A DNA stretch of 64,000 nt, from contig JAHLJT010002630.1 of NCBI GenBank assembly GCA_031308135.1, forward strand, positions 100,065,608 through 100,129,607, in the 5' to 3' direction. The position numbers were made by a program, and so were the translations under genes. Source of the stretch: Acheta domesticus. Its lineage: Eukaryota; Arthropoda; Insecta; Orthoptera; Gryllidae. Below the pieces are notes generated by a model. That model was not told the origin of the DNA, did no database searches, and was given only the letters and a program-made list of their open reading frames with translations. Shown here piece by piece: positions 10,699 to 55,546 of the stretch. Within the stretch, counting starts at the first letter, position 1; each line of letters starts with the position of its first letter.

Positions 10699-13044
10699 AC
10701 CTCCAATTTTGAGATGTTTTTTTTCTTCCCACTCCAAACTAAAATGAAGTCGTGCTTCCAGCTCTGTCAACTGTAGGTACATAGGGCCTTTGCTCCACAA
10801 CCTGATTCCCTCAACATCCATATAAGAGTACATCATCACGACGTCATCAGTGTCCCTGATGGACAATGTTGCGCCTCCGAGGTCCGTGGAGCGAGTTGCC
10901 ACCAGCGCCTTGGCCTCGCGCGCGCACGCCTCACTGCGCTCCTCACACTGGGTGAGCCACTCCCCGCTCCCCCCAACGACATCGACGGCCAGCGGCCCCC
11001 ACCGCCCCTCCCCCACCCGTTCGCGCAGCAGCAGCCCGCGGAAGCCCTGGTGGCGCTGCCATAGCGCGGCCAGCACGCGCCGCCCCGCACGCAGCTGCGC
11101 CCCAGCCACGCCCCCCTCCGCGCGCCCGGCCTCGCGCACGCGCCCCCCGCCGCTCCTTTGCTCCTGCTGCGAACCCCGCTCGCCCTCCAGGTCTTCCTCA
11201 AGGAGCTTCTTCACACGCCTCCCGCCGCTCCTTTGTTCCTGCTGCGAACCCCGCTCGCCCTCCAGGTCTTCCTCAAGGAGCTTCTTCACACGCCTCCCGC
11301 CGCTCGTTTGTTCCTGCTGCGAACCCCGCTCGCCCTCCAGGTCTTCCTCAAGGAGCTTCTTCACACGCCTCCCGCCGCTCGTTTGTTCCTGCTGCGAACC
11401 CCGCTCGCCCTCCAGGTCTTCCTCAAGGAGCTTCTTCACACGCCTCCCGCCGCTCGTTTGTTCCTGCTGCGAACCCCGCTCGCCCTCCAGGTCTTCCTCA
11501 GGGAGCTTCTTCACGCGCCCCCCGCCGCTCGTTTGTTCCTGCTGCGAACCCCGCTCGCCCTCCAGGTCTTCCTCAAGGAGCTTCTTCACGCGCCTCCCGC
11601 CGCTCCTTTGTTCCTGCTGCGAACCCCGCTCGCCCTCCAGGTCTTCCTCAAGGAGCTTCTTCACACGCCTCCCGCCGCTCGTTTGTTCCTGCTGCGAACC
11701 CCGCTCGCCCTCCAGGTCTTCCTCAAGGAGCTTCTTCACACGCCTCCCGCCGCTCGTTTGTTCCTGCTGCGAACCCCGCTCGCCCTCCAGGTCTTCCTCA
11801 GGGAGCTTCTTCACGCGCCCCCCGCCGCTCGTTTGTTCCTGCTGCGAACCCCGCTCGCCCTCCAGGTCTTCCTCAAGGAGCTTCTTCACACGCCTCCCGC
11901 CGCTCGTTTGTTCCTGCTGCGAACCCCGCTCGCCCTCCAGGTCTTCCTCAGGGAGCTTCTTCACGCGCCCCCCGCCGCTCCTTTGTTCCTGCTGCGAACC
12001 CCGCTCGCCCTCCAGGTCTTCCTCAAGGAGCTTCTTCACACGCCTCCCGCCGCTCGTTTGTTCCTGCTGCGAACCCCGCTCGCCCTCCAGGTCTCCCTCA
12101 AGGAGCTTCTTCACACGCCTCCCGCCGCTCGTTTGTTCCTGCTGCGAACCCCGCTCGCCCTTCAGGTCTTCCTCAAGGAGCTTCTTCAGACGCCTCCCGC
12201 CGCTCGTTTGTTCTTGCTGCGAACCCCGCTCGCCCTCCAGGTCTTCCTCAAGGAGCTTCTTCACACGCCTCCCGCCGCTCGTTTGTTCCTGCTGCGAACC
12301 CCGCTCGCCCTTCAGGTCTTCCTCAAGGAGCTTCTTCACACGCCTCCCGCCGCTCGTTTGTTCTTGCTGCCAACCCCGCTCGCCCTCATCATCTTCCTCA
12401 GAAATCTTCTGTGAATTCTTCTCGTTTTTATTATCTTCCTCCAGAAGTCTTTGCGATCGCCACTTTTTCTGCGGATTACGTGCAAAAGATTTATCTGAAT
12501 GCCAGTCACCTCCTAGGTTTTCTTCGAAATGATTCAGCGATCCCCAGTCGTGATGCAAACGGTGATCCTCATGAAGCAGCGTCTGACGTCGCCCGTTGTC
12601 CTCCATGAGGCGTTGCCATCGCTCGCCTTCCTTCCGGAGAGTCTGAGGTGACAAATCGTCTCCTTTTTTACTTTTTCTCTTTGGATCCGCTGGGAAGGGA
12701 TTGTGAGATTTCAGTGTGTCCCCCTCGTTTCTATTCTCCCTCTGAGTTCTTTGTAAATTGAAGTTGTCATTTTTACGTTTCTCCAAGTTGTTCTTGAATG
12801 GTTTGTCTTCCCGCAGGTCGTTCAGAAAATTATGCGTTTTCCCCATAATGCTTTTAATTTCTCTATTTGCAAGAAGACGATTTTTACCTTTCTTAACGAC
12901 ATTGTTTTGTAAACTTTCGTGGTTATTTGTGTTCATTTCCTGCTTGCATTTGTCATTGCCTGGTCTCCTTCCAATTGCCAGAACGACTGGCGCTGAAGAA
13001 CTTAATTGAAGGTTTCTATACGAGATGGCGTCATCTGTTAATAT
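10699..13044 (-). CDS. Gene 1 exon B: IR amino-terminal domain with 25-residue repeat array and start of lobe S1
   Basis: The acceptor is TTATTTTACAG before ATA at 13044, giving ILTDDAISYRNLQL, which aligns with exon B2. The frame is open for 782 codons. Residues 1-215 are charged and diverged from B2 after NLQLSSSAPVVLAIGR. Residues about 217-633 are the 75-bp array. Residues about 634-725 are a GC-rich segment almost identical to B2 (REAGRAEGGVAGAQLRAGRR ... ATRSTDLGGA). The end (IRLWSKGPMYLQLTELEARL, then HFSLEW) matches the S1 pattern before exon C. The donor is uncertain: phase 0 requires GGT|GTGTAA at 10699, while GAG|GTGTGT two bases upstream looks stronger but gives phase 1. No stop or frameshift interrupts this copy. 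Confidence 0.8.
11146..12392 (-). repeat. In-frame 75-bp coding array, gene 1 (~16 units)
   Basis: The period is exactly 75 bases (25 codons), for example CCCGCCGCTC recurring at 11221 and 11296. Each unit encodes KKLLEEDLEGERGSQQEQ followed by TSGGRRV. Sixteen full units and a diverged partial unit at the N-terminal edge are present. Variants include Leu to Pro (KKLPEED, three units), Thr to Arg (QEQRSGG) and LKG or EGD changes, more than in gene 2. The unit is rich in K, E, R and Q and could form charged helix or coiled coil separated by SGG linkers. Confidence 0.95.
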
Positions 13045-13624
13045 CTGTAAAATAACCAAAATGTTTAAATGCTGTATATTACTGATGTTGCCTTTTCACT
13101 CTCGCACTAGCTCTCTAACGTTTAGTAGAATAGCGCTACAGCTATTTCAGGAGTATCGTCTGGTTTCACCCTATCCCCGTCAGTAAAGGGATATTAGATA
13201 AGGGCGAGTCATGGTGAGGAAAGAAGGATCGAGAGAAAACCATAAGACGGTGTTTAACACATTAATTGTTTCCAAAGAATTGCAGAAACAGCGAAAAACA
13301 ACAGTAGAAGCAATGAGCCACAAGATTTCTCATCCAGATGGTTACAACGTCCGGCAAAGCACATTAGTCGAGTCTACGGCGGTTCCTTCGGAACTTCCTA
13401 ACGTTCAAGGGTTTCCATGACTGAGGGGTATTCCCGCATAAGGCGGTAGAAAGTTCCCTAAAATCAAATAGCATATGAGTATTTTAACTATCACCAACAT
13501 AAAAATAATTTTTTTGAAAGATTTCTAAACACCCATCTCACTAAAACCATCCCTGAAAATCCAAATTTGTTTTTCTTATTTTAATTTTTTCGTCGGCATA
13601 AAATTAATTTTTCTCAGTGGCGCT
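13045..13624. other. Gene 1 intron A-B, unassigned part
   Basis: An open frame at 13211-13420 on the plus strand has no recognisable family. Nothing else is visible before the dispersed repeat. Confidence 0.4.
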
Positions 13625-16190
13625 CTAGTGGCGCTACAACGGCACATACTTTCCCGTGTCATTGGAAATAGCAACATAGGATTGAAATATTGCACTTTCT
13701 GGGCTACTAACATCTTAGCTATTATTGGAAAACGTATGGCCTACAATTCAACCAAGAAGCGAACAACTCACTGTTTCCTTCGCAGTGTTTTCAAAACTAT
13801 GTGAATTCTACAACTGCATGAAAATATAATACAAAAGGTTTGTAAACTTGTATTGGAAAAAATGCCTGATACCATACAGCTAAATCAAGTCACAACCATG
13901 ATAAGTAATTCAAAGAAATTCGCGACAGTGAACGGAATTCCATTGTTGCATTCCCTGCATTGGCGATACTCCCTTAAAGAGCTAGCAATTTTTATTTCAA
14001 ATATTTCAAAATAAATAATTTCTGAAACATTAATGTGTAAATGTATAACAAAAGGTCGAATGTAAAAACGAACAAAAAAATAATATACAAAATTGCAAAT
14101 TCTAATTTACGACGAATCTGGCTGTCTGAAACGCAGTAAATTTGCAGCGAGCTATTATGTTTGTCAGGAAATTATAGAAAAACTACTCGTGTTTTCAAAA
14201 CTTAAGCATTACCTTATTTGAAGATGTAGTTTTGATAAATACATTTCACTGAGAAAACCATCTGTTCTCTACCGCCGCCAAAAATACAGGGTTTTGACAT
14301 TTTCTTAATTTTTCGGTTTCCTAATGGTAGAACAGAAATATTAATTCTAGAATATTAAAGAACACAAAAACCTTGTCCTAAATGGCAAATTCCTTTTAAA
14401 AATTTGTAGCCGTTTTTAAGAAAATGTCGTTTAAGCGCTACTAAAATTGCGAAATTTGAAACTCTTTTTCACAGACAATTTTTAAGTTTTCAAAAAACTT
14501 TATTTGAAGTCATTTAAAGCGCTTACACTCATAAATATAACAATGTTTACAAATTGCTGGTAATGTGCATATTAAAAATATTAGAGAACTTTACATATGT
14601 GTAATAATTGAAAAAACAAAAATATAACTCAAAATAAACTTAAGTCATATTAAAAAGTGCAATTAGCACTATCCGTTCGAAAAGTTTGAAGAAAAAATTT
14701 GGTGCCATTTATGAGAAAATGGCGTTTGAGCGTTTCTGAAAATGCGGAATTTTTAACTAGTTTTCACAGAAAACAGTTGAGTTTTCGAGAAACTTTACAT
14801 GACATTATTTAAAGCACATATACTCATTAATATAATTATGTGAACAAATCGTCGCTAATGTAAAGTTTACTGACGTGAGAGGCATGTCAAAAAAAAGAAC
14901 ATTTTTGCAGTTTAAAAAAAGAATAGAGCAATATGGCGTTTATGCCATCTAATAAAGTACATTTAGCACTATCCCTACCAAAAGTTTAAAGAACAAATTG
15001 GACCCGTTTTTAAGAAAATGTTGTGTTTTTGTAAGTTTTGAAAAATATACATATTGTACGCAATATTGCTCGAAAACTACTAAAATTATCAAAAAAATGT
15101 ACATGATCTAAAAGAAGGAACTCACTTTGCAGAACTAATTTTATTAGGAAGAAAAATGTATATCCTCAATTTTGTTCTTGTAGAAAGACGCCGAAAAAGA
15201 TTCAAACTTTTGCAATTTTCGAAAATTCAGGGTTAACCGTGAAAATCGGATCTATGCCCGATTCCTGTACGTATGCCGAAAAGTAAAAATTTGGAGCAGT
15301 TGTTAAAAAATATACTTTTTTGGAAATTACATAAATTTCAAACAAAAAATATGCGAAAGCTACTCGTATTTATCAAACAATTGTAGGTGTTCTTTTTTAA
15401 AGAGCAGATTTTTTACAACAGACTAAGTCAAAAATTTCTATCTTCAATTCCAAATGATGGATATGTCGCTGGAAGTGGAACCAGCACCATACTTTTTACC
15501 GTTCCTTGATACATTTGAGGACAAATATTAACAAAAACATTTCAAGTGGTTTTTGACAAAAAATGGTTTGAAAATTAAATAGCCTATGTTTCATGAAATA
15601 TTCCACGGAAACTACACTTCTTTTCGAAAAATTAAACATGAACTTCTTTCAAGATCCGACTTTATAGAGTAGGAAGATGCCAAAAAATTGCACTAATGCA
15701 ATTTTGGAAATTTGTTTTAACGCTTTTGAGACCTGCACCATGCCCCTATACGTCCGATATGCGGTTTGAGGACAAAGTTTAATTAAAAAACTTGGAGAAA
15801 TTTTGTGAGAAACTTTTGGAAACGTTGTAGAGGCCTCATGTAAAATACCCTCAAAAAACAAAATATCCGTTTGAAATTCCCAAAGCCTTAAGTTCGTACA
15901 GATCGATTGGGGAAAATCAATTTGGAGAAAATCGGCTTAATGGTTAAGGCGCTAGTATTGCCCACAGATGGGCAGACGATACGCCTCCAATCGGATTTCA
16001 GGTATCAAAGACCCGCAAAACATGATTCTGGCTACATCATATATTAGAGGAAGTAATTTACGACACATAGTAACATAATTTTTTCATTGGTTCGTTACCA
16101 GGATCCAGCAGTAAGAGTTTTTCTGCCGAAAATTCGCCGTTTTCCGGTGCATTATTATTCAACTTTCTCTTCTTATTAAGTAAGTGCGAA
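13625..16190 (+). repeat. AT-rich dispersed repeat, near full-length copy
   Basis: It starts with CTAGTGGCGCTACAACGGCA at about 13627 and ends near 16150 with TCTGCCGAAAATTCGCCGTT. It contains the block AATTAGCACTATCC followed by TGAGAAAATGGCGTTTGAGC more than once in diverged form, at about 14430, 14720 and 15010, i.e. an internal period of about 290 bases. The GATGGGCAGACGATACG segment near 15965 corresponds to GATGGACAGACG in other copies. No protein-coding region is visible. Confidence 0.8.
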
Positions 16191-17153
16191 GAAGTAAAAA
16201 TGAAAGTTCGCAGGTTGTGACATACAAATCCGATTATTGCGACACATTAAAAACGTGAATAATTGGGAAAGGTTCCGTTCAAGGCATTTCAAACCAGGTG
16301 CATGGCTGGTCAAGAAGTGTAGAAGCCGAAATCTGTGTAAAATAAGTAAAGGAACACTACCGAAATAATCTTTAACAAAATAATTAATGGGATTTTCTAT
16401 GCATTTTGATTTTAGCGCTCAGCAATATGGGATTGATTCCTCTCGCACAGTGCCAGGTCTATAATGCTTTAACACTGTTCGGGTGATAGCTGTTCGAAGC
16501 TGAAATCTACTTTAAATCGGGTTTCAATTTTAAAACACTTAATTTTTTACACAGAGCAATGTAATCACGGATTCCAGGTCTGTAAACGTATTTATACGTA
16601 TACAGGTCTGTATACGTATTCAAGAATTCAGAAAGGGAAAAACCTTTCTCTCCTTGGAAACTATTACAAATGCGTTCGATTTGACATTCTCGCACTTACT
16701 TTGTAATAAGAGAGAGTATTGTAATCGTGCGTGAGAAAACGGCAAATTTTTAAACAGCATCTTTTCTTCACGAGCCCTAGTCACGAACAAGTGATCGGGT
16801 TTCTACTTGTAGTAACGTGCTTCCTCAAACACATTGTGTAGTCAGAATTGTGGGTCCTTGATACGGAAAAATCTATTGGCGGCAAAACTGTCTGTCTGAC
16901 CATCTGTCCGTCTGCTATAGTCAATGCTAACGCCTAAACCAAAACTATGCCATCGATTTTGTCTGTAGCCATCCATTTTGTCATCCAACTTCAGTTTCCT
17001 TTATTATTGATTTATTGATTTTAATTTGGGAAAATGTATTTAAAATGAGAAATCCTACGCATTTCTCTTATATAATTTCCACAAAGCCAATTTTCAACCT
17101 CTCATTGAAAATTGAGATGCAAATTTAGCATCCTCAATTGAACACTAACTGAC
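16191..17153. other. Gene 1 intron A-B, proximal part
   Basis: AT-rich sequence with a short palindromic stretch of GTATACGTATT near 16600. A second, reverse-oriented fragment of the dispersed repeat end lies at about 16730-16960 (GAGAAAACGGCAAATTTT, CTGTCTGACCATCTGTCCG). No exon was seen. Confidence 0.45.
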
Positions 17154-17645
17154 CGTCCTGAAGTGGTCATATACTGCGTCCTTGGTGTGTAGGAGCAGGA
17201 AGGCGAGAAGGTGTTGGTGGCGGTGTGCCGCTAGCACGTAGCCGCCCTGCCTCTCCAGCCACGCGGGCGCCTTGACTTGCTTCAAAAGTGATGGAGACGG
17301 GCGCCACAGCAGCAGCGGCGCCGCGGCGCGGGCGTGCAGGGCGCGTAGCCAGCGCGGGCCGTCGCCCAGGTCCACCACGCCCACCGCCCGGCCCCCACCC
17401 AGCGCCCACTGCACGCCCGCCACGGGCGGCCCCGCCCCCGCCCACGGCACACACACGCCCCGCGCCTCCACCCCCGCCCACGCCCCCCACAGCGCCGCCG
17501 CCAGCGCCAGCCCCAGGGCTCGAAGCCCCGCCCCCGCGCCCCGCCGCCTTCCCCGCGCCTCTTCCCCGGCCCACGCCTCCCACAGCGCCAGCGCCAGGGT
17601 TCGAAGCCAGGCCTCGCCGCCTCGAAGCAGCCCCTTCCCGCCCAT
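17154..17645 (-). CDS. Gene 1 exon A: IR signal peptide and start of amino-terminal domain
   Basis: ATG at 17645 is chosen because gene 2 has an in-frame TGA just upstream of the matching ATG, although the gene 1 frame stays open to 17819. The exon encodes 164 residues and ends with KDAVYDHFRT at a phase-0 donor ACG|GTCAGT. Residues about 13-26 (WLRTLALALWEAWA) form a signal-peptide-like core, and a second similar hydrophobic stretch (LRALGLALAAALWGAWAG) follows at about 40. SPSLLKQVKAPAWLERQGGY is almost identical to gene 2. Composition is extremely rich in Gly, Ala and Arg. From about 17220 to 17393 it is identical by eye to exon A2. A receptor role is inferred from linkage to exons B-D. 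Confidence 0.75.
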
Positions 17646-17886
17646 AGCAGCGCTCTTCGCCTGTTTGCAGTCACCTCGTTGCGACACCGCTGCCTTACGA
17701 AAGGCACCGACACGCCCGTCCTCCTTACGACAGTCGTTCGCCACGGCGGCAGAACGAATCACTTCGCTCTCCACGGACACAGTTGGCGAACATCTCGAAG
17801 CACGGAGTTGAGTCACCATTGCTGCAAATGTGGCAACAATGAGAATGTTTTTTATCTCCGGACATTTCGAGAGTCGTCAATTTGTT
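17646..17886 (-). promoter_or_regulatory. Conserved 5' flank of gene 1
   Basis: About 240 bases upstream of the ATG match the flank of gene 2 (63533-63772) closely, for example CTCCACGGACACAG, GAAGCACGGAGTTGAGTCA and AAATGTGGCAACAATGAGA. Similarity resumes at 18956-19035 after the inserted element. It presumably holds the 5' UTR and core promoter; no TATA box is obvious. Confidence 0.55.
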
Positions 17887-17894
17887 TGTCATAT

Positions 17895-18955: not shown

Positions 18956-19035
18956 AGTCATATCATTTTCTCCTACCTGGATGTTTGTTGCTGACAACAA
19001 TGAACCTTACTCGATCAGAACCTATAATTTTAACA

Positions 19036-22785: not shown

Positions 22786-23241
22786 TTGACTCAGGCGGTC
22801 GAAGGCGCCCCTGGGTCTCCTGAGCCCTCAGTGCCTGGTTCTGCGCGCGCCGAGGGGTCGCTTCGGCCTGGGATGCCTTGACTCAGGCGGTCGAAGTCGC
22901 CCCTGGGTCTCCTGAGCCCTCAGTGCCTGGTTCTGCGCGCGCCGAGGGGTCGCTTCGGCCTGGGATGCCTTGACTCAGGTGGTCGAAAGCGCCCCTGGGC
23001 CTCCTGAGCCCTCAGTGCCTGGTTCTGCGCGCGCCGAGGGGTCGCTTCGGCCTGGGATGCCTTGACTCAGGCGGTCGAAAGCGCCCCTGGGTCTCCTGAG
23101 CCCTCAGTGCCTGGTTCTGCGAGCGCCGAGGGGTCGCTTCGGCCTGGGATGCCTTGACTCAGGCGGTCGAAGGCGCCCCTGGGTCTCCTGAGCCCTCAGT
23201 GCCTGGTTCTGCGCGCGCCGAGGGGTCGCTTCGGCCTGGGG
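22786..23241. repeat. 92-bp tandem repeat spanning the 3' end of gene 2
   Basis: TTGACTCAGG recurs at 22786, 22878, 22970, 23062 and 23154, a constant spacing of 92 bases with few substitutions. The unit is GC-rich. The unit nearest the gene encodes the last ~15 residues and stop codon of exon E2, so the repeat grew out of the gene end into the 3' flank. As 92 is not a multiple of three, the copies could not extend the protein in one frame. Confidence 0.95.
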
Positions 23242-23562
23242 GGCGCCAACGCGCGCAGAGCTCTGCGCATCTGCGCACGCGCAGCGCCCCGCCGACTGCG
23301 CGCGACCTCTGCGCAGAAGGCGGCGGCGGCCAGCGCCAGCCCCGCGCACAGCAGCGCCAGGTGCGGCCGCAGGTCCTGCAGCTCCAGGGTCCGGGGTTCG
23401 TCGCTTGCCGCCCCCGCTTCGCCCTGACGCCAAGACGCTGCATTGCGCAGACGCCAGTACATCCCCCATGTTCTGCTGAAATCGTCCGCCCACTTGAGAT
23501 AAAGTCCCGCATCTCGGAACTGAATCATCTTCAAATTAATTGCGTCGATCCACGGCCAGTTC
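23196..23562 (-). CDS. Gene 2 exon E: IR C-terminal exon with last transmembrane segment
   Basis: The acceptor TTTCCAG precedes a single G at 23562 that completes the tryptophan codon begun by exon D2 (TG|G). The protein then reads NWPWIDAINLKMIQFRDAGL, YLKW and so on, the usual region before the last TM of IRs. LELQDLRPHLALLCAGLALA followed by AAAFCAEVA is that TM (the L-x-L-x-D-L-x-x-x-x-x-L-L pattern of IRs). A basic tail follows, ending PRPKRPLGARRTRH and a TGA at 23196-23198 inside the first 92-bp unit. The phase match with exon D2 strongly supports the exon. The tail beyond the TM is lineage-specific. Confidence 0.88.
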
Positions 23563-25687: not shown

Positions 25688-25688
25688 A

Positions 25689-25721: not shown

Positions 25722-25722
<1 letters not shown>

Positions 25723-27960
25723 CGCTGCATCACGAGTCAGCTGAATATAAAATCTACTCCAGGTTGCAACGAGCTACCTAAGGAGCAGATCTAGGGACTG
25801 TCGGGGCCTCTACAATACTTTGCGCAAAATGTGGGCTGTACCAAATAATGCGATTTCTTGCACTTCCCAGTCTTTTGAATTACCTGGTAGTTTAGACATG
25901 CTTTTACACAAATTTTGTGGAACAAATCCCAGAGCCCCGATAACTATCGGTACAACCTGTGCTTTTACGCCCCACATTCGGCTGATCTCGATTTCTAAAC
26001 TCTAGTATTCAAGACGTTTCTCTGACTCCTTGGTTACGACATCCAAGGTACAGCAACATCGCAAGGTACAGCAATATCGACAAGTAAACACGATTTTTTC
26101 TCCAAATCCCGGATAACTATATCCGGTTTCTGCCGCTATCGTGCGGTCAGTTTGAATTTGTTGGTCGTACAATATCGTACACAATCCAACAGACGTCACC
26201 GGTTTCGGTGAGTGTTCGTACCACTTGGGGCATGTGTTTGGAACTTCGAGGGCGGTACAGATCTGCATGTGGAGGTAGCTACACACCCTGTCGTGTCTTT
26301 TCAGGTATTCGGTCTTTGCTAGGATTGGACAAGCTGAGACAATATGATCAATGGTTTCTACTTGCTCCTGGCAAATTCGGCATTTGTCATCTTGGGAAAT
26401 TTTGAGAACCGCTTTATCATAATGTCGTGTTCTCAACGCCTGATCTTGAGCAGCTACTAGAACTGCTTCCGATTCTGGCTTCATTCTTCCCCTTTTAAGT
26501 CACATAAATGATTGATCTTTATTGATCTGCACCTTTTCCATTCTTTCTAGATATTGTCCATGGAGGGGTTTGTCCCTCCACGACTTCTTCAACATTTTTT
26601 GTGTCTCACATTTCATGTTTAGTTGTACCAGAAGCTCAGTGTCTGTGTTATTTGACGTGTCTTGCATAGTTTTCTTTGCAATGCTTTTTGCTACACTAAC
26701 AATGCCTCTGTTTCCTATTTTTCGGTCAGATTTCATGACCTGCCTCATTAGAGGGTCATCTTGATGACTGACTACATATTTTCCCATTACAACTATTGCA
26801 TTGTGCCAGGATGCTTCAATTTGTCTGAGGCCTCTTCCTCCTTCCTTACGTGACACATAAAGTCTATGTACATCAGCTCGAGGGTGGGCGACATGATGCA
26901 TTGTTAGCAGTTTTCTGGTTTTTCGATCCATGATGCGGATTTCTTGCTCAGTCCAGTCCACTAGTCCGGAACTGTACTCAACTACAGGCACCGCCAGACT
27001 ACCAATTGCAGATATTTTATTCCTGGAGTTCAGAGCAGACTGCAGGACAAGTCTCACTCTTCTGTAATAGTCCTTGCGAATTCTCTCTTTCATTGTGTTG
27101 TTCGAGATGGTCTCACATTCTTCAATGCCCAGATATTTGTAAGTTTTACCTGGCTCAATATCTGGTATCACAGTGTGCATATCAACTTAAACGCTCTCTG
27201 ACGTTGTCAGTTTGCCTCTTTTTAAATTGATTTTTGCACATTTGTCAAGACCAAACTTCATGCAGATGTCATTGCTAAAGTCATTTACGACAGACAGCAT
27301 TTGGGAGAGAATCGCTTCATTCTTATCAAACACTTTCAGATCATCCATGTAAAACAAATGTGATACTGGCCTTTCATCACCATGGAGCTTGTAACCAAAG
27401 TCAGCTTGCGACAACTGTCTCGATAGTGGGATCAAACTAATGCAAAACAGCAGAGGGGATAGTGAATCTCCTTGAAAAATACCCCTGTTGATCTGAATAC
27501 TTCTGGTTTCTACTGCTTCCTTTCTGCTCTGTATTAGTAACCTGGTACTCCACGACTTCATGCTAGCCTTGCAAAATTCAATAAGCCTAGGATGAAATCG
27601 ATAGATCTCCAGGGTCTTCAAAATCCAATCGTGTGGTACACTATCAAAGGCTTTTTGTTAGTCAATCCAAGCCATGCTCAAATTACGTTTTCGTTTCTTT
27701 ACATCATTCAAGATGACTTTATTCAGTAGCAAGATTTCCTTACAGCCATAAGAACCTTTACGACATCCTTTTTGTTCAGCTGGCATTAGATGATTCTTCT
27801 CTAGATGTCTGTACATTTTGTCAGCTATGGCTGAAGTTATAACTTTGTACAGTACTGGCAGACAAGTGATTGGTCTATAGTTCTTCGCCAAAGAGCTGTC
27901 TCCCTCTTTGGGTAGCAGATACGTGATGCCGCGTGTGAGCCATTCCGGGAGTTCCTTTGG

Positions 27961-27961
<1 letters not shown>
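25722..27961 (-). mobile_element. R4/Dong-type non-LTR retrotransposon, 5'-truncated and decayed
   Basis: On the minus strand the element encodes reverse transcriptase (KNYRPITCLPVLYKVI; AFDSVPHDWILK; GIFQGDSLSPLLF; FYMDDLKVF, the catalytic YMDD box). Then follow a zinc knuckle CRICQEQVETIDHIVSACPI and the start of a restriction-like endonuclease. It is dead: stops replace Tyr in WID*QKAFDS near 27655, Lys near 27187 and Trp near 26500. A short direct duplication near 26045-26090 shifts the frame in the endonuclease. Both ends sit on ATT tracts. Dong elements are known to insert in TAA repeats, which fits. A second copy lies at 55.8 kb. The orientation is the same as that of host gene 2. Confidence 0.85.
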
Positions 27962-27994
<33 letters not shown>

Positions 27995-31117: not shown

Positions 31118-31491
31118 CATTTCGTAACCATATATTCCCATGATGGTCTCCCTCCGTCGAAAACTTTCATTGCGCCCTTCTTCTGGGTGATCATGGAAAC
31201 TAATAGGGGCCACTCCGTATCGGTTGAAAGTGAAGCGTAGCGATTTTCATCGAGATACAATAGCAGATCATTTGACTTGTTCCAAAATTTAAAATTGAAA
31301 TTTAAGAAAAATTTGATGCCTAATTCCGAACAAATACTGTCTTTTGACTCTGAACAAAAGAGTTTTATCTTATCTATGTAAGGTTGAAACTCTATGGAAG
31401 CTAATGCTGTTATTCCAGTGGCAATGAGTTGGTCAATTGTTTCGATGTCCGGATAGTTTTGTGGAATAATAATCAGGTCGAAGAGACGCCC
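31118..31491 (-). CDS. Gene 2 exon D: ionotropic receptor ligand-binding lobe S2
   Basis: The acceptor is GTGCAG before GGG at 31491 and the donor is TG|GTAAGT at 31118, both in the same phase as exon D1. The exon gives 124 residues plus two bases, beginning GRLFDLIIIPQNYPDIETID and ending EYMVTKW. Compared with D1 it keeps GRLFD, YPDIxTIxxL, LDEN and the W-x-Y-x-V-T end but differs at roughly half of the other positions. This contrasts with the near identity of parts of exons A, B and C. It forms the second ligand-binding lobe. The intron side of the acceptor contains a (CAAA)n tract. Confidence 0.88.
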
Positions 31492-33570: not shown

Positions 33571-35420
33571 AGTTACACTTCCAAACACAAACGGCACAAT
33601 CTAAAGACCACTGCTTACGGAACATAACACGGCGTATCCTGAATAAGCCTATCAAAATACCTCCCCTCACCACTTTATCGGGTACAGTATCTTCACCATC
33701 TGAAAAATGCGAAGTGTTGGGAAAATACTTTGCTACATCATTCACACCCCACCCCACCAACAATCCTGTACATGACAATTTCATCTCAGTAGAAAACTTA
33801 AGGCCAACAATCACAGTACTAGAATGTCCAAAATTCATTTCTCCGTTAGAAATCATTAAATATATTTCTCTGCCAGCCCCCAAAGTATCAAACGGTTTCG
33901 ACCAAATCTCAGCGTACTTAAACTTCTTCCTCTAAAAGTCATTGTACACATCACAGCAATATTTAATGCAGCCCTGAGAATGTCATACTTCCCCCACACA
34001 TGGAAATACGCACATATCATCCCCATCCCCAAACCAGGAAAACCAAATGATGACCCAGGAAGCTACCGCCCAATTAGTCTGCTATCCTCCGTGGGAAAAT
34101 TACTTGAAAAATGCATCCTCACCAGGCTAAATAATCATCTCACCACATTAAATATAATTCCACCTCATCAGTTTGGATTTCAACCTCAGCTTTCAACATA
34201 CCACCAAATACTGCGATTGACATTATTGAGGGCATTATCGAAGGTTTTCATGATCATAAGCATACAGTTGCAGTATTCCTTGACATCGCAAAAGCTTTTG
34301 ATACAGTATGGCACCCAGGACTGATATTCAAACTCCGGAGCATTGACACTCCCCAATATCTCGCACGCATAATAGAAGATTTTCTTAGTGAACGAACTTT
34401 TTCAGTGCGACTTCCTGGTGCACTCTCAACACCATACCCCATCAAAGCAGGAGTTCCGTAGGGTTCGAGCCTCTCTCCAACCTTATTCAATATCTACATA
34501 GCTGACGTACCCACCACACCATCAACATCCATTGCCACTTTTGCAGATGACACAGCAATCTACTCCACAAACTGAGACATAGAAACAGCAATAGAGGATT
34601 TACAAAACCATCTCACTGTATTTTCCGATTGGGCACAGAAATGTCACATTCTGATAAACGCAAACAAGAGCCAAGGGAAAATATTCACTCTTCGAAGACC
34701 ACTTGACCCACCCACACTCACCTATCAGAACCATAACATACCATGGATTCCTGCGAACGCCACGGCAAAATACCTTGGAGTATTACTCGACAGACGACTC
34801 ACATGGAGACCCAATATCATGCATAGAATAGCACTAGCCACTAAACGAACACATCAGTTATATCCCCTACTCAAAAAATCATCCCCACTCCAATTACACA
34901 CATCCATTCATCTTTACCAAACAATGATACGCCCTATATTAAGTTATGCATTTCCTGTCTGGGCCGCAGCATCCAAAACAAATCTTCAGAAAATCCAAAC
35001 ATTCCAAAATAAATTTCTAAGAATAATCACAAAAGCATCCTGGTTCATTCCAAACTCTCAAATCCATCAAGAACTCGGTATCACACCTATCACTGTACAC
35101 TTTTCCCTTCTATCCGCAAAATTCTATAACAAAATTTCTCGAATACCTTCAACTACCCATTTCAAACTTGGCAAACAGAACCCTCATCGTAAACGATTGA
35201 GAAGGAAATGACCCAGAGATTTTTTTGACCCTCCTTAAGCAGACTGGAAGAGATTAGCCTTTCCGTATAATATAAAATGCTCCTAAAAATGTAATAATCA
35301 CGATAAAAGAAAATATCTTGCAAACTTGCTGTATCAAATAAAATCAACTAGTGTACTAGTCGTTCACGGCCGCTGAAGGCCTCAGGCCAAGCAAGAGTAA
35401 ATAAAATAAATAAAAAAAAT
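33571..35420 (+). mobile_element. 5'-truncated jockey-type LINE with target-site duplication
   Basis: The translation gives YAHIIPIPKPGKPNDDPGSY followed by RPISLLSSVGKLLEK, then DIAKAFDTVWHPGL (catalytic Asp of motif A) and FADDTAIY (motif C). The C-terminal part is near 34819-35211. The frame breaks near 34240 and has stops at about 34459 (a Gln codon changed to TAG) and 34575, so it is inactive. It ends in an A-rich TAAATAAAATAAATA tail. ATGGACAGA occurs immediately before the element (33562-33570) and directly after the tail (35421-35429), a 9-base target-site duplication. It inserted in a pre-existing dispersed repeat copy. Confidence 0.88.
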
Positions 35421-39154: not shown

Positions 39155-39592
39155 CTGGTAGGCGGCGGCGACGACGACGGCGGAGGCGAGCAGCGCGGCG
39201 GCCAGCTGCAGGCGCTGCGGCGTGGCGCGCACCCTGTCCTGCGGGGCGCCCCCGCACGAGGAGAAGGCGCGCAGCGCGGCGGCGGCGCTGGCGGCCAGCG
39301 ACTCGCCCGCCACCACGCGCCACGCCAGCGCGTACGCCACCGCCGTCCCCAGCAGCGCCAGCCACATATGACGGGAGAACACGCGCAGCGGCAGCGACCA
39401 CGCCGGCAGCCTCGCAGGCGGAGGCACGGCCATTATCGTTCTAGAGACTGATTGTGACGCTGGCACGAAATCACACGAAAGCATTTGTCCAAATTTCGGC
39501 ATCATCAATCCAACTGTGAAGACCACGTTGTCGAATAAGACATTTCGTATTGTACCATGGACCCTTGTGTCCGATTTTACTAAAGGTTGCCC
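39155..39592 (-). CDS. Gene 2 exon C: IR lobe S1 end, TM1, pore and TM2
   Basis: The exon has 146 codons, phase 0 at both ends: acceptor TTTCAG before GGG at 39592, donor CAG|GTGAGG at 39155. Residues 1-39 (GQPLVKSDTRVHGTIRNVLF and on) are diverged from exon C1 and three residues longer. From CDFVPASQSVSRTI onward it is nearly the same protein, with TM1 (MWLALLGTAVAYALAW), the pore loop (RAFSSCGGAPQDRVRATPQR) and TM2 ending AYQ. The first 210 bases next to the donor (39155-39364) are identical by eye to 9503-9712, yet the intron sequence differs from the first bases on. It is extremely GC-rich. Confidence 0.88.
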
Positions 39593-48479: not shown

Positions 48480-49320
48480 TACTTAAATATGTCCACTCCT
48501 TTTCTTTCTCTTTTCACTCTCCCCAAAATGAAGTCTGTAATACTTTACGTGCGCCGTCTCCTCGCGCCGTCCGACAGGTCTGCTGCAAAGGTCGCGCACA
48601 CTCGCGCGCCGCCACCTCGGAAGCCCGGCCGCCACGCGCCGCCAAGGGCGAACCCCAGCCGGCCCTGAGCCCTCTCGCGTTGCCTCCACAGCACGTCCAA
48701 CCACGTTCCGTCTTCTCTGCTTCTCGTCCGACTCCCGAATTCTTATACCGTTCGTGCGTCCGTATCCTCAAGCGCGGCATTCGACACGAGCCTATCGTTT
48801 TACTGCGGTCCTCGGTTCGCACTATCTGCCGTGTGATAACCACTTAACTCAGTTTTCTAAAACTCACTTTTAATAAACTTAACTTTGTCCATTCTAGCTA
48901 TTTCATTACAGTTCATCTTCTATTCCTGCCTTACGAAATATCACCTTCACTTTTAACATTCAACCGTCTACCTCTCCCGAATCTAACATCTGCCTATTCT
49001 AGATGCCGCCGCCTAGATACTGACTAGGCACCTCCGTCCGGTCACGCTGCTCAGACCAGAAGAAGCGCGATTCCCTTATGGTCAGCCGCACTTCCCCTCT
49101 TTTCCCCCTCACTACCTGACATGAGTGGGGGTCACTCTCCTATCGGTACCCCTTCTCGCCAGCGAACGCTTCTCCGGACGCGCCCAGCTTTGCGCGGTCT
49201 TTTGAATTCTTGTTCTTCCTTTTTCGTCTCTTCCTTGTCTTTTATCCTCACCCTCATTCACGTATCACATATCGTAAGCATATCGTACTCATATCGTACG
49301 CAAGGAGAAAGGTGAGTGCC
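48480..49320. other. GC-rich block inside the 3.1-kb transposon
   Basis: This lies between two coding pieces of the transposon protein, in what may be an intron. It is CpG-rich at 48530-48680 and pyrimidine-rich afterwards. It could be an LTR or 5' UTR of another element; I found no terminal repeats or protein similarity. Confidence 0.3.
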
Positions 49321-50104
49321 GTAATTATTTCATGTGAGTACAGAAAGCAATGATGGAGAAGAAATGTTGACACAATTCAAAGAAAAATTTTCAAATGTGA
49401 AAACAGCTAATGAGAAATATATGATTTTAACGTATTTACCAAAAAGTTGGAGTGAACAAAAAAAATGGTCGAATTTGGCGTATCTCTTCATGTAGGTCGT
49501 ACGGCAAAATTAACACCTAGAGAAGTAGTTTTGTGAAATCCACCATCGCGCCGCGGAGGAAAAAAGTAACGCCGAGTGCTGTCGAAGAGTGCTGGGGCGC
49601 GGCGGCTCTAGCAGCTGAGATGAGTTCGTTTACGGAGCGCCAGTAAGATACTTTTATTCATAACTTTAAAACCATTCAAGATTCCATGATGAAATTTACA
49701 GAGTAGCTTGAAAGTAGTTTCAGCAATTTTTCTTCCAAAATTCAAGAATTTAAAAATATTACATTTCCATTTATTGCACTTTTTAGAATTTCTTTACATC
49801 TAATTATTAAAGACTCGCGGTAAAAAAATATCTTTAGTGTAAAATTATCCTTTACATTTCTTCTACAAACAGTATCACTTTCATATTTTTTGCTTGTTTG
49901 CATATCATCGGAAAAAAAATCATAACGGAATGTTTACAGACTGCTAACCTAATATTTCAAGTGCCCATTGTTGCTAAACAATGGATGATGAGACAAAAAT
50001 ATTGTACCTGGTTCATGCAGGTATCATGACAAGTAAGGTGACAAAATATTTTTAAATTCTGAGATGTAGTGTCAGATTTCCTACTTTCTTGCATGGAATG
50101 ACCC

Positions 50105-51290
50105 GTTTACAAATTGCTGGTAACGTGCACATTAAAGATTTGAGAAACCTTTCAAAAAATTACATTTGTTTAATTTTTGCAAAAACAAAAAAATACCAAA
50201 ATGAACTTTAGTCACATTAAAGAGTGCAATTAGTACTATCCGCTCCAAAAGTTTGAAGAAAAAAATTGGAACCATTTATGAGAAAATGACGTTTGAGCGT
50301 TTCTGAAAATGCGGAATTTTCAGCTAGTTCTAAAAAAAAAACGCTTGAGTTTTCGAGAAACTTTACTTGACTTATTTAAAGCACATGTGCTCATTAATAT
50401 AATAATGTCAACAAATCGCCGCTAATGTAAATATAAACGACGTGAAAGACAAGTCAAAAAAATTACATTTTTGCAATTTTTGAAAAAAACAAAAGAATAG
50501 AGCAATACGGCGTTTATGTCATCTCATAGAGTATATTAAGTACTATCCCTACCAAAAGATCAAAGAGAAAAGTTTTAGCCGATTTTGAGAAACCTTGTTT
50601 TTGTAATTTTTTTTAAAATTGCACATATTGTACGCAATATTGTGCAAAAACCACTAAAATTTTCAAAAAATTGTACATGACCTTAATGAAAGAACTCACT
50701 TTGGAGAAGAAATTTTATTTGGAGGAAAAATCTCTATCTGCAATTTTATAGTTAGAGGAAGACGCCGACAAAAATTCAAACTTTTGCAATTTTCGAAAAT
50801 TCAGAGTTTTCAACCGACATGAGACCAACACCATTCTCTTTAATGACCTTCAGACTATCCAACAAAATTTAATCAAAATTTTTTTGGCGCTATTTTTTTG
50901 AAAATTTTGAAAATGTCCCAGGGGCTTCATATAAAGTACCCTCCAAAATTAAAATATCGGTTTCAAATTCAAGAGACAATGAGAATATTCAGATCGATCG
51001 GAGAGTATCAATTTTGGAAAAAATCGGCTGAATGGTTTAGTCGCTAGCGTTGTTCACATACACGGGACGGACAGACAGGCGCTTTTCTTTCAATTGGTTT
51101 TTCGGTATCAAGGACACAAAAAAGGAATTCTGGCTGCACCACGTGTTAGGAGGTTTTTTCTTAATTTAGCAACTGGATTTATCCACTTTTTCGTTACCAG
51201 GGCCTTGTAATAAGAATGTTTCTGCCGAAAATCCGTCGTTTTTTCGCGCAGCATTACCTAACTTTGCCTATACTATACGTACGTATAGAA
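50105..51290 (+). repeat. Dispersed repeat, segment 3 of the split copy, with 3' end
   Basis: It resumes with GTTTACAAATTGCTGGTAAC, passes the internal blocks near 50270 and 50580 and the ACGGGACGGACAGACAGGCG segment. It ends TTTTCGCGCAGCATTACCTA near 51260, the family's 3' end. Confidence 0.75.
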
Positions 51291-51454
51291 TACGGGAAAG
51301 AAAAAATGTCACGTACAATTTTCTGGAAAAAAGAGTAGATGTTGCGTAATTGGCGCTTGAAATTTGCGAAAAAAAGTTTTCTCAAAAACCGCTCCAAATG
51401 TTTTCTTTAAATTATCTCCACATGTGTAATAAGGGACGGCAAATAAATATACAA

Positions 51455-51640
51455 ACTAGTGGTGCTATAGAATGGCACAAACTTTCTCGCAGAACTGTTT
51501 TCTCTATAGTCTGAACTAGTTTTCCTGTTATGAATGATTATCTTCCCACATACCTTCTTTGGACGCCCAAAGGATATTTTTTTCACATTCTCTGGATTTT
51601 TCGTCTTCCTAATGATGGAAATGAAACATTAATTACCATT
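51455..51640 (+). repeat. Dispersed repeat 5' fragment, variant head
   Basis: It starts AACTAGTGGTGCTATAGAAT and stops after CTTCCTAATGATGGAAATG. Confidence 0.6.
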
Positions 51641-52213
51641 ATATAAGTGTAAATGCCATGCACAGCAAAGCCAGTCGTGCTCGTTAAATGGCGAGCATCG
51701 GCCCAGCTCTTCCGAGGGAAGCTTTCCTGGTTCGAGTTCTCGTCGGGGAGTATTGTTTGTTACAATTCTCTGCTGTCGCAGGAAATTATTGAGAATTCTA
51801 GGAATTTTATTGAAACCATTGGAATAACAAACATTGATAATTTTGATAAACTGGAAACGTCTGTATGTAATATTAAATGTTTAACTTTCTAACAATTTTT
51901 CACATCACTTCTTGGATTTGTAAAACGTATGTACTATCATATCAATTGTTTTCCTATTATGCATTTTCCATTTATGGCTCTGTGCGATTCATTTTATGGC
52001 TCTGTTCGATCCATAGGGTGCTAGTGGGGCGTAGTGATATAAGCACCGGCACGGTAACTTTGAGAATCTCAGTTACAGTCTCGGAACAGAAAAAAATTTC
52101 TAGTTGACCCTTTTGCTGTTTTTTGTGTAGTAGTGTAGTATCATTTAGAAACAGTGCGAGAAAGTATGTGCTTTGGAAGCACTGGTTTTTAGTTTTAATG
52201 ACGAAATACTGAC
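51641..52213. other. Gene 2 intron B-C, next to exon B2
   Basis: A short GC-richer piece at 51653-51750 has a B-box-like GGTTCGAGTTC and a GCTC...GAGC stem-loop and might be a tRNA-derived relic; a full cloverleaf cannot be drawn. The rest is featureless. Confidence 0.25.
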
Positions 52214-55200
52214 CTTTAATGTTGTAGGGTTCTTTCTGACACCTTTCCAATAAATATAAAAGTGAAGCCTCGCTCCGAGCTCTTTGTACTTCAGGTACCC
52301 TGGGGAAGCCAACCGGAAGCTAACTTCCCCAACCTGCACATTGCGCGCGTCACAGCTGTCTTCGAGGTGCGCGTAGGACAAGTCGGCGCCTCCGAGGTCC
52401 GTGGAGCGAGTTGCCACCAGCGCCTTGGCCTCGCGCGCGCACGCCTCACTGCGCTCCTCACACTGGGTGAGCCACTCCCCGCTCCCCCCAACGACATCGA
52501 CGGCCAGCGCCCACCACCGCCCCTCCCCCACCCGTTCGCGCAGCAGCAGCCCGCGGAAGCCCTGGTGGCGCTGCCATAGCGCGGCCAGCACGCGCCGCCC
52601 CGCACGCAGCTGCGCCCCAGCCACGCCCCCCTCCGCGCGCCCGGCCTCGCGCACGCGCCCCCCGCCGCTCCTTTGTTCCTGCTGCGAACCCCGCTCGCCC
52701 TCCAGGTCTTCCTCAAGGAGCTTCTTCACACGCCTCCCGCCGCTCGTTTGTTCCTGCTGCGAACCCCGCTCGCCCTCCAGGTCTTCCTCAAGGAGCTTCT
52801 TCACACGCCTCCCGCCGCTCGTTTGTTCCTTCTGCGAACCCCGCTCGCCCTCCAGGTCTTCCTCAAGGAGCTTCTTCACACGCCTCCCGCCGCTCGCTTG
52901 TTCCTTCTGCGAACCCCGCTCGCCCTCCAGGTCTTCCTCAAGGAGCTTCTTCACACGCCTCCCGCCGCTCGTTTGTTCCTTCTGCGAACCCCGCTCGCCC
53001 TCCAGGTCTTCCTCAAGGAGCTTCTTCACACGCCTCCCGCCGCTCGTTTGTTCCTGCTGCGAACCCCGCTCGCCCTCCAGGTCTTCCTCAAGGAGCTTCT
53101 TCACACGCCTCCCGCCGCTCGTTTGTTCCTGCTGCGAACCCCGCTCGCCCTCCAGGTCTTCCTCAAGGAGCTTCTTCACACGCCTCCCGCCGCTCGTTTG
53201 TTCCTGCTGCGAACCCCGCTCGCCCTCCAGGTCTTCCTCAAGGAGCTTCTTCACACGCCTCCCGCCGCTCGTTTGTTCCTGCTGCGAACCCCGCTCGCCC
53301 TCCAGGTCTTCCTCAAGGAGCTTCTTCACACGCCTCCCGCCGCTCGTTTGTTCCTGCTGCGAACCCCGCTCGCCCTCCAGGTCTTCCTCAAGGATCTTCT
53401 TCACACGCCTCCCGCCGCTCGTTTGTTCTTGCTGCGAACCCCGCTCGCCCTCCAGGTCTTCCTCAAGGAGCTTCTTCACACGCCTCCCGCCGCTCGTTTG
53501 TTCCTGCTGCGAACCCCGCTCGCCCTCCAGGTCTTCCTCAAGGAGCTTCTTCACACGCCTCCCGCCGCTCGTTTGTTCCTGCTGCGAACCCCGCTCGCCC
53601 TCCAGGTCTTCCTCAAGGAGCTTCTTCACACGCCTCCCGCCGCTCGTTTGTTCCTGCTGCGAACCCCGCTCGCCCTCCAGGTCTTCCTCAAGGAGCTTCT
53701 TCACACACCTCCCGCCGCTCGTTTGTTCCTGCTGCGAACCCCGCTCGCCCTCCAGGTCTTCCTCAAGGAGCTTCTTCACACTCCTCCCGCCGCTCGTTTG
53801 TTCCTGCTGCGAACCCCGCTCGCCCTCCAGGTCTTCCTCAAGGAGCTTCTTCACACGCCTCCCGCCGCTCGTTTGTTCCTGCTGCGAACCCCGCTCGCCC
53901 TCCAGGTCTTCCTCAAGGAGCTTCTTCACACGCCTCCCGCCGCTCGTTTGTTCCTGCTGCGAACCCCGCTCGCCCTCCAGGTCTTCCTCAAGGAGCTTCT
54001 TCACACGCCTCCCGCCGCTCGTTTGTTCCTGCTGCGAACCCCGCTCGCCCTCCAGGTCTTCCTCAAGGAGCTTCTTCACACGCCTCCCGCCGCTCGTTTG
54101 TTCCTGCTGCGAACCCCGCTCGCCCTCCAGGTCTTCCTCAAGGAGCTTCTTCACACGCCTCCCGCCGCTCGTTTGTTCCTGCTGCGAACCCCGCTCGCCC
54201 TCCAGGTCTTCCTCAAGGAGCTTCTTCACACACCTCCCGCCGCTCGTTGTTCCTGCTGCGAACCCCGCTCGCCCTCCAGGTCTTCCTCAAGGAGCTTCTT
54301 CACACGCCTCCCGCCGCTCGTTTGTTCCTGCTGCGAACCCCGCTCGCCCTCCAGGTCTTCCTCAAGGAGCTTCTTCACACACCTCCCCGCCGCTCGTTTG
54401 TTCCTGCTGCGAACCCCGCTCGCCCTCCAGGTCTTCCTCAAGGAGCTTCTTCACACGCCTCCCGCCGCTCGTTTGTTCCTGCTGCGAACCCCGCTCGCCC
54501 TCCAGGTCTTCAAGGAGCTTCTTCACACGCCTCCCGCCGCTCGTTTGTTCTTGCTGCGAACCCCGCTCGCCCTCCAGGTCTTCCTCAAGGAGCTTCTTCA
54601 CACGCCTCCCGCCGCTCGTTTGTTCCTGCTGCGAACCCCGCTCGCCCTCCAGGTCTTCCTCAAGGAGCTTCTTCACACGCCTCCCGCCGCTCGTTTGTTC
54701 CTGCTGCGAACCCCGCTCGCCCTCCAGGTCTTCCTCAAGGAGCTTCTTCACACGCCTCCCGCCGCTCGTTTGTTCCTGCTGCGAACCCCGCTCGCCCTCC
54801 AGGTCTTCCTCAAGGAGCTTCTTCACACACCTCCCGCCGCTCGTTTGTTCCTGCTGCGAACCCCGCTCGCCCTCCAGGTCTTCCTCAAGGAGCTTCTTCA
54901 CACGCCTCCCGCCGCTCGTTTGTTCCTGCTGCGAACCCCGCTCGCCCTCCAGGTCTTCCTCAGGGAGCGTCTGCGAATCGTCCTCCATCATTTTCTGAAA
55001 CCGTTTCTGTGGTGACGGCTCACCCTCTTGGCCTGTACGAAGCTTTCGTGAGGTCCACTTATGCTGCAAATGTTGATCAACATAAAGATGTTCGTAAAGG
55101 AATGTCTGAGATCTCTGTTCATCGCCTGCGCTGCGTTGAGTTCGGAAGTTCATCTGAAAAGGCCAGTCGTCATCCCAGGTGCTTTCGAGGCTCGATTTCT

Positions 55201-55546
55201 TCGTCGAGCGACATCGAGTCTGTTTATCGAAGCTTCTATTACCTATCTCATTTTTGTGTTCGATATTCTGAACTTTGAAGCGTTTCCGGAGGTTGTTTTG
55301 TAACAACCGGTCTTTCTGAAAGACATTTTGTGAATCTTTCACAATTTTACGACTTCCTGTATATCCATTCCGTAATCTTTGACACTCTGGACCTTTCATG
55401 AAGTCATGGTTCTGTGGAAGTGAATCGCTTTCTTTATTCTCTTTCTTGCAATTATGAATTTCTGGTGTCCTTCCAATCGCTAAAACGACTGGCGCTGAAG
55501 AATGCAGTTGAAGGTTACGATACAAGATGGTGCCACTTGATAAACC
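52214..55546 (-). CDS. Gene 2 exon B: IR amino-terminal domain with long 25-residue repeat array; frameshifted as written
   Basis: The acceptor is CTTTACAG before GGT at 55546 and the donor is AAG|GTCAGT at 52214, phase 0 at both ends. The exon begins GLSSGTILYRNLQLHSSAPV, aligned with B1. About 190 charged residues precede the array. The array is followed by a segment almost identical to B1 (REAGRAEGG ... ATRSTDLGGA), then a diverged S1 start ending LHFYIYWKGVRKNPTTLK. Two indels break the frame: an extra C in CCTCCCC near 54384-54387 and a missing T in CGCTCGTTG near 54246. Read through, the protein would stop at 54362. Since they cancel and lie in homopolymers of a tandem repeat, assembly error is likely. 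A 3-base deletion near 54511 keeps the frame. Total length is 3333 bases, a multiple of three. Confidence 0.78.
52660..54975 (-). repeat. In-frame 75-bp coding array, gene 2 (~30 units)
   Basis: The unit and period are the same as in gene 1 (KKLLEEDLEGERGSQQEQ plus TSGGRRV). There are about 30 units, nearly identical to one another, more homogeneous than in gene 1. Substitutions include QKEQ in three adjacent units near 52830-52990, RCV or RSV for RRV, and one KKILEED. The KKLPEED variant of gene 1 is absent from the interior. The homogeneity points to recent expansion. Confidence 0.95.

Follow-up and report, generated by a model that had tools for sequence, protein, structure and literature searches.

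The DNA considered here (the window) is a stretch of 64,000 nucleotides from the cricket Acheta domesticus (assembly GCA_031308135.1, contig JAHLJT010002630.1, positions 100,065,608 to 100,129,607 of the forward strand). It contains two genes, gene 1 and gene 2, which resemble genes of ionotropic receptors (IRs) and carry, in the second of their five modelled exons (exon B), an in-frame array of a 75-bp unit. We consider it likely that a family of IR-like genes carries this array as a coding minisatellite within a hypervariable linker, that the array is homogenised by gene conversion, and that it marks a point of exchange between paralogues. According to this scenario, the linker, encoded by exon B, would be a polar and fast-evolving part of the extracellular N-terminal region, and each working receptor would thereby have a long flexible stretch that is charged and punctuated by glycines. 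The array would grow and shrink via slippage or unequal exchange. Gene conversion would keep the unit alike among the copies and, in most of them, also the segment that follows the array, while other parts diverge. Between genes 1 and 2, conversion would also cover the GC-rich parts of exons A and C. Insect IR families expand fast, and how the paralogues diversify while retaining a working channel is an open question. Here, one genome holds a dozen natural variants of a single receptor type, and those that are open contain between 6 and 63 units.

The 75-bp array and its reading frame

Tandem Repeats Finder delineates the gene 1 array at 11137-12387 (minus strand; 75 bp, 16.7 copies, 96% matches) and the gene 2 array at 52652-54972 (minus strand; 75 bp, 31.0 copies, 98% matches), and in the gene models both lie in frame within exon B, upstream of the lobe S1, as the initial annotation had proposed. 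Its estimate of about 16 and about 30 units was accurate as well: the gene 1 array can be cut into 16 full units, each of 75 bp and all in frame, plus a degenerate first unit, and the gene 2 array into 30 full units, namely 27 of 75 bp and one each of 72, 76 and 74 bp. The arrays had been called perfect, but they are only 96-98% regular. The consensus unit common to the two genes encodes the 25 residues KKLLEEDLEGERGSQQEQTSGGRRV, so that the length originally given for the unit stands, whereas its spelling, which was without a T and a V, does not. This shared consensus is matched by 3 of the 16 units in gene 1 and by 17 of the 30 in gene 2, and a 45-base core of the unit, if up to 3 mismatches are allowed, has 47 occurrences in the window but none in 100 shuffles. 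Acidic and basic residues are both abundant in the unit, which includes a GSQQEQTSGG stretch; there is no N-glycosylation site (N-X-S/T) within its 25 residues.

Exon B of gene 1 (10699..13044, minus strand) is open over 782 amino acids and contains, in this order, a conserved strand ending in ..RNLQLSSSAPVVLAIG, a polar spacer, the array, a post-array segment (REAGRAEGG..TDLGGA, 10870..11136, minus strand) that is homogenised between paralogues, and the first part of S1. Exon B of gene 2 (52214..55546, minus strand; post-array segment REAGRAEGG..TDLGGA at 52385..52651, minus strand) has the same layout, with the frame broken within the array. Hence, the limits originally set for the feature, 10699 and 55546, correspond to the 3' end of exon B in gene 1, at a weak donor, and to the 5' end of exon B in gene 2. 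The insert between the AIG strand (..APVVLAIG) and VLAALWQRHQGF comprises 631 amino acids in gene 1 and, if the frame break is ignored, 960 in gene 2, in keeping with the expectation that the extracellular part would be hundreds of residues longer. In gene 1, the array is located 83 residues before S1.

When considering whether the array is translated, an open frame across the 75-bp repeats is, taken alone, weak evidence, because the unit is free of stop codons in all three antisense frames too. For the same reason, plus-strand open reading frames of 449-935 amino acids that run over the arrays were rejected as genes and are regarded as by-products. The frame that is open in the array is also the one in which both the spacer on its 5' side and the segment on its 3' side are open. 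No stop interrupts the spacer over 212 codons in gene 1 and 193 in gene 2, as against 6-19 stops in the other two frames; each of the six gaps between the two spacers is a multiple of three in length, and none of the 567 aligned sites is out of phase. Conservation of residues is another matter. A codon-guided alignment of the two spacers yields a ratio of nonsynonymous to synonymous substitution rates (dN/dS) of 0.33 at a dS of 1.83, which is near saturation, another alignment gives a dS of 1.09, and recent pairs of loci show dN/dS values of 0.39, 0.28 and 1.17 that are based on few changes; a nucleotide alignment of the two spacers, however, reveals no excess of differences at the third codon position. 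Given these conflicting alignments, we claim conservation of the frame but not of the residues; since the frame is kept and the residues are not, the spacer is best described as a hypervariable linker.

Could the array be removed from the mRNA as an intron or as part of one? Candidate donors of 8.1 bits are present 5' of the array, at 12887 in gene 1 and at 55023 in gene 2 (all scores being based on untrained donor and acceptor weights). In addition, four units of gene 2 (54830, 54382, 54233 and 53708, minus strand) carry a C-to-T change that creates the sequence GAG|GTGTGT, a strong-looking 5' splice site of 8.4 bits, for which no matching acceptor was found in exon B. More generally, within exon B none of the 196 AG dinucleotides in or 3' of the gene 1 array, and none of the 340 in gene 2, reaches the score of the weakest modelled acceptor, and the post-array coding segment continues unbroken, which makes removal of the array by splicing very improbable. 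Judging from these sequence features, the array most likely stays in the mRNA, and, because the splice phases fit and exon B offers no rival acceptor from the array onwards, it is probably translated.

Array-bearing loci of the same genome

The initial annotation noted that the two paralogues differ in array length, and this difference extends to at least 12 loci on one contig. A search of the cricket's own genome (2.33 Gb) with two units, in which 150 of the 513 first candidates were scored, returned 217 matches, not all of which were listed; on both counts, 12 loci is a lower bound. Among the matches listed, all fall on contig C1707 (122.5 Mb) or on a small contig, C43, and the unit occupies the same site of exon B in at least 12 loci of C1707. 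A conserved exon-B head and a spacer precede the array in all 12, and the post-array segment is present in 11, being not found in L017/L018 (107.08-107.09 Mb), which were counted as one locus although it contains a run of Ns and possibly more than one array. Counted by pattern, the array comprises 17 units in gene 1, 31 in gene 2, 34 in L009, 63 in L010, 34 in L011, 24 in L012, 20 in L013, 18 in L014, 42 in L015, 16 in L016, 6 in L019 and 132 in L017/L018. Only 75-bp spacings are seen in seven of the 12 (gene 1, L009, L010, L011, L013, L015 and L019). Six loci (gene 1, L009, L010, L011, L015 and L019) are open from the head via the array into S1, with open frames of 468 to 1895 amino acids and 6 to 63 units; L017 has an open frame of 2073 amino acids, but this locus is broken elsewhere. 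Where the frame is open, the array adds from about 150 to more than 1,500 amino acids to what is predicted to be the outer part of the protein.

The number and length of these arrays could, in principle, be artefacts of assembly: there is a run of 100 Ns within L017, and C43, an unplaced contig that is nearly all array (L020, C43:1-10000), is irregular, with 43 of its 120 spacings being odd, either owing to base-level assembly noise in unpolished sequence or because the array has decayed. This explanation hardly seems credible in view of seven cleanly spaced arrays of differing length that have locus-specific unit variants and distinct flanks.

Several observations, however, speak against the reading favoured here, and they are best considered together. 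The differences between the spacers of genes 1 and 2 are distributed over the three codon positions as 83/87/91, with almost no excess at the third position. The phase-0 donor of gene 1 exon B is weak (-1.8 bits), and two bases before it there is a phase-1 donor of 8.4 bits, the use of which would require an acceptor seven bases into exon C; moreover, splice ends were modelled for the two genes of the window only. The gene 2 array, initially taken to be uninterrupted, carries a +1 indel (in the 76-bp unit starting at 54451) and a -1 indel (in the 74-bp unit starting at 54300), and between these indels, inside the array, there are two in-frame TGA codons. Exon B has a frame problem in six of the 12 loci: odd array spacings occur in gene 2, L012, L014, L016 and L017/L018, the spacer of L013 is frameshifted, and L012 and L016 are disturbed after the array as well. 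Finally, exon C is broken by a single base in L010 (near 1864, minus strand), the locus whose 63 units form the longest clean array. Both gene 2 indels are one-base changes within runs of G or A, and such changes are frequent consensus errors of long-read assemblies; this pair could be an assembly consensus error or a null allele. The frame breaks of the loci in general may, likewise, stem from assembly errors or from decay.

Part of this evidence would be accounted for if the family had largely decayed, that is, if the arrays resided in pseudogenes and a stop-free 75-bp unit simply stayed open however often it was copied. The exon-B frame problems in half of the loci and the state of L010, open in exon B and broken in exon C, fit such a view, and so do the weak residue-level constraint in the array and the spacer and the proportion of pseudogenes among the IR genes of Blattella, given as 43.8% in the available text of PMC6175461. 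Nevertheless, we regard wholesale decay as unlikely. The unique spacers are stop-free and a multiple of three in length in 11 of the 12 loci, gene 1 is open in all five exons (see below), the dN/dS of the lobe S2 (exon D) between genes 1 and 2 is 0.37, and most of the breaks involve a single base, at a level where, to judge from the odd spacings of C43, assembly noise may exist.

Homogenisation, length change and a mosaic gene

The consensus unit is identical in 11 of the 12 loci and differs by a single synonymous base in L010. Between genes 1 and 2, there are three near-identical tracts, namely the 3' part of exon A, the array together with the next 81 codons, and the 3' part of exon C, with identical runs of 212, 178 and 138 bases, as against no more than 45 bases in 2000 shuffles. 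In the post-array segment, only 2 differences are seen in the first 243 bases. The GC content at third codon positions is about 0.85-0.9 in the near-identical tracts, whereas in the spacer and exon D, where dS exceeds 1, it is 0.40-0.45.

The same pattern is apparent across the family. The post-array segment could be compared in nine of the 12 loci (all except L012 and L016, which are disturbed there, and L017/L018), and in seven of these nine its dS does not exceed 0.09. For six of those seven, dS amounts to 0.66-1.09 in the spacer, the pair of gene 2 and L009 (0.05) aside, and, again for six of the seven, to 0.56-1.16 in S1, the pair of gene 1 and L009 (0.06) aside; the spacer comparison was made without L013 and the S1 comparison without L010, which has a stop within the 48 codons taken. 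The remaining two loci, L014 and L015, are instructive: their post-array segment is diverged from that of the others (dS 0.37-0.42), and yet their unit is the common consensus. Because the segment has been able to diverge in L014 and L015, its sameness elsewhere is better explained by gene conversion than by constraint.

L014 and L015 are recent duplicates, with 98% identity over the 560 bp before the array and 99% over the 500 bp beyond, but their arrays comprise 18 and 42 units, respectively, a difference of 24 units or 600 residues. Thus, the length of the array changes far faster than the rest of the gene, at least as judged from the genomic sequence of this pair.

One locus, L009, is a mosaic of two neighbours, genes 2 and 1, as far as sequence comparison can tell. 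Over the 560 bp before the array, its identity is 98% to gene 2 and 51% to gene 1. Over 500 bp beyond the homogenised stretch the relation is reversed, with 86% identity to gene 1 and 49% to gene 2, and exon D, too, is closer to that of gene 1 (62.6%) than to that of gene 2 (40%). Therefore, the switch must have occurred within the array or in the homogenised stretch after it, and it could represent a crossover or a conversion tract that ended there. Before the array, L009 resembles gene 2 over 694 of the 3000 bp compared, and this would fit a conversion tract as well. A second mosaic, L012, was suspected from matches of its flanks; the 500-bp comparison did not support it, and this candidate was dropped.

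Because the copies share one array, paralogues would be able to swap their 5' and 3' halves at it. A more far-reaching proposal is that the array acts as a recombination platform, at which the private N-terminal spacer of one gene would be joined to the private ligand-binding and channel half of another, with the length of the spacer reset and the pore kept uniform by conversion. We put this forward tentatively, considering it possible but rather doubtful; if true, a single minisatellite would be the source of combinatorial diversity as well as of length diversity within a family of chemoreceptors.

The high uniformity of the unit invites yet another explanation, namely that the segment is selected for its length or chemistry, e.g. 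as a spacer, as a segment interacting with the lymph or as a weak oligomerisation stalk, such that copy number would tune the receptor. The occurrence of one consensus at the same site in 12 loci and the span of 6 to 63 units among the six open copies could be taken in this sense, and for IR84a, a tuning IR, the available part of PMC7882480 describes the short N-terminal region as required for normal cilia targeting. However, conversion accounts for the single consensus, and the four Gryllus relatives that are readable at this site (see below) manage without the unit. Furthermore, the 196 units of the six open loci contain 33 types of replacement changes and 14 types of silent ones (133 and 76 occurrences, respectively) and no stop, to be compared with the 162 replacement, 52 silent and 11 stop changes that are possible in the unit. 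The share of replacements is only somewhat below the neutral one, so that no tuned structure is seen, which argues against a finely tuned structural repeat and leaves selection for length or chemistry quite unlikely. We would rather expect the segment to be a flexible, tolerated spacer, the main constraints on which, to judge from its sequence, would be the maintenance of the frame and the absence of stop codons.

The coding minisatellite that we favour lends itself to tests of how far the extracellular part of an IR can be lengthened and still be tolerated, and of whether exchange between paralogous chemoreceptor genes is directed by a coding minisatellite. In addition, it is likely to be an annotation trap: exons of this kind may be fragmented or lost in short-read assemblies and by gene predictors, and, as a consequence, such repertoires may be miscounted.

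Receptor identity, relatives and neighbouring features

The initial assignment of the two genes to ionotropic receptors withstands scrutiny in so far as they are IR-like multi-exon genes by their exon order and their Gryllus relatives, but a Pfam channel domain could not be detected. A protein search (8000 candidates scored) yielded seven Gryllus relatives at E <=1e-5, one of which is named Ionotropic receptor in UniRef, the other six being unnamed; exon C and the join of exons D and E align with these relatives. The order S1, first transmembrane segment (TM1), pore, TM2, S2, TM3 is borne out by exon order, splice phases, hydropathy and alignment: hydrophobic segments corresponding to TM1-TM3 follow one another in the joined model of gene 2, and in gene 1 TM1 and TM2 are found in exons A-D and TM3 in L021. 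The domains PF10613 and PF00060, used as ligand-gated channel domains according to the accessible text of PMC2924276, were not detected: a Pfam scan of the joined S1-S2 of genes 1 and 2 gave no family up to E = 10. In five of the seven Gryllus relatives, it gave two unrelated weak matches only. Accordingly, we call the genes IR-like. Co-receptor IRs (IR8a and IR25a) are characterised by an amino-terminal domain (ATD) of the ionotropic glutamate receptor type (PF01094) and by the co-receptor extra loop (CREL). Scans of three open stretches, namely exons A and B of gene 1 and the 5' part of exon B in gene 2, gave no match to PF01094 up to E = 1; the CREL was not searched for. A single-sequence search of PDB returned 0 matches up to E = 10; in a profile search, three of five matches were to GluD1, with two collinear stretches, but their E values of 0.72-0.80 fall short of significance, and we do not treat them as proof. 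The AlphaFold2 models of two relatives, P0006 and P0001, have a mean predicted local distance difference test score of 31.2 and 37.7, respectively, too low for either to be informative.

Like tuning IRs, the cricket genes form a multi-exon family and encode an N-terminal part, S1, three ordered hydrophobic segments and S2. The available portions of PMC7882480 and PMC2924276 give about 200 residues before S1 in tuning IRs and about 400 in IR21a, IR40a, IR64a and IR93a, in contrast to 883 residues for gene 1 and 1236 for gene 2, which fall to 459-464 when the array is discounted. An extra segment within an IR is not unprecedented, but the CREL of IR8a and IR25a is placed near the start of S2 and described as conserved and as having one N-glycosylation motif in the accessible part of PMC7882480, whereas the cricket array precedes S1, is repetitive and length-variable, and its unit is devoid of an N-X-S/T site. 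With other coding minisatellites, such as the zinc-finger array of PRDM9, the cricket array shares a head-to-tail in-frame unit and a variable copy number: its 75-bp unit is in frame with both flanks in six of the 12 loci, with 6-63 units there, and copy number varies between the paralogues of one individual's genome. The PRDM9 units, however, are folded DNA-binding fingers with selected contact residues, whereas the cricket unit is a charged segment of no known domain in a receptor-like gene and is common to a dozen paralogues. In open-licence PMC papers on IRs, including those of cockroaches, crickets and orthopterans, we found no report of such arrays. The available text of PMC6175461, on the IRs of B. 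germanica, describes large expansions and many pseudogenes and makes no mention of arrays, and in that of the cricket genome paper PMC8203789 the word "ionotropic" occurs once, within the reference list.

It had been suggested that the unit be sought in related species. A protein search with the spacer and the array, in which 8000 candidates were scored, all of 430-1368 amino acids, gave nothing at E <=0.01, and the unit is found at the array site in none of the four Gryllus relatives that are readable there; the site is not readable in P0002, P0003 and P0007. At this site, P0006 has about 58 residues, P0004 and P0005 have about 130 polar residues, and P0001 has about 16. The spacers themselves bear some likeness to the unit, exceeding 498 of 500 shuffles in gene 1 and about 93% of them in gene 2. 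We make no claim, however, that the inserts of the Gryllus proteins descend from the unit: those of P0004 and P0006 are matched by 29% and 14% of shuffles, respectively. P0002 and P0003 share with the cricket genes an IR-like core combined with a repetitive charged stretch, which in P0002 occupies residues 61-475 (415 residues) and shows periods of 4, 8 and 16 above those of shuffles, P0003 being similar by eye. Here, however, the repeat unit is another one, it precedes the ..LQLNSAAPVVMA strand, and the predicted protein lacks S1. Thus, this receptor family may have acquired repeats on more than one occasion.

All exons of both five-exon models are on the minus strand, and the splice phases (0, 0, 0, 2) are identical in the two genes. 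In gene 1, exon A (17154..17645, minus strand; 164 amino acids) encodes a signal-peptide-like start and the N-terminal part, ends with the donor GTCAGT in phase 0 and aligns with P0006 of Gryllus longicercus; exon C (9503..9931, minus strand) encodes the end of S1, TM1, the pore and TM2, ends in AAYQ|gtaaga and matches the Gryllus relatives; exon D (7035..7402, minus strand) encodes S2 (GRLFDMIINPQ..) and has the donor GTAAGT in phase 2. Exon E lies to the left of the window, in L021 (from contig position ~100063008 downwards), where it is open, carries TM3 and is preceded by an acceptor of the required phase; gene 1 is therefore open in five exons that add up to about 1,340 residues. In gene 2, exon A (62969..63532, minus strand; 188 amino acids) has its signal-peptide-like stretch tandemly doubled, exon C (39155..39592, minus strand) encodes the end of S1, TM1, the pore and TM2, exon D (31118..31491, minus strand) encodes S2, and exon E (23196..23562, minus strand), which aligns with P0001 and P0007, encodes the end of S2 (NWPWIDAINLK..AGLYLKW) and TM3.

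Other repeats are found in and around these exons. The signal-peptide-like stretch of exon A (GLRALGLALAVALWGAWAGVEARGVCVP..) is tandemly duplicated in both genes, at 17456-17608 and 63253-63504, the duplication being degenerate in gene 1, and P0006 has a single such stretch. A 92-bp minisatellite of 4.9 copies (22786-23240) begins in the last codons of gene 2, the stop codon of which is supplied by the first copy, and the remaining copies would be 3' untranslated. A 27-bp repeat array is located in the intron between exons C and D of gene 1 (8672-8884). The introns of gene 2 contain reverse-transcriptase remnants at 26002-27993 (minus strand), 33860-35211 (plus strand) and 55727-56803 (plus strand); Pfam recognises RVT_1 at 33860-34324 and zf-RVT at 55727-56803, and the remnant at 26002-27993 was assigned partly by its likeness to the one at 55727-56803.

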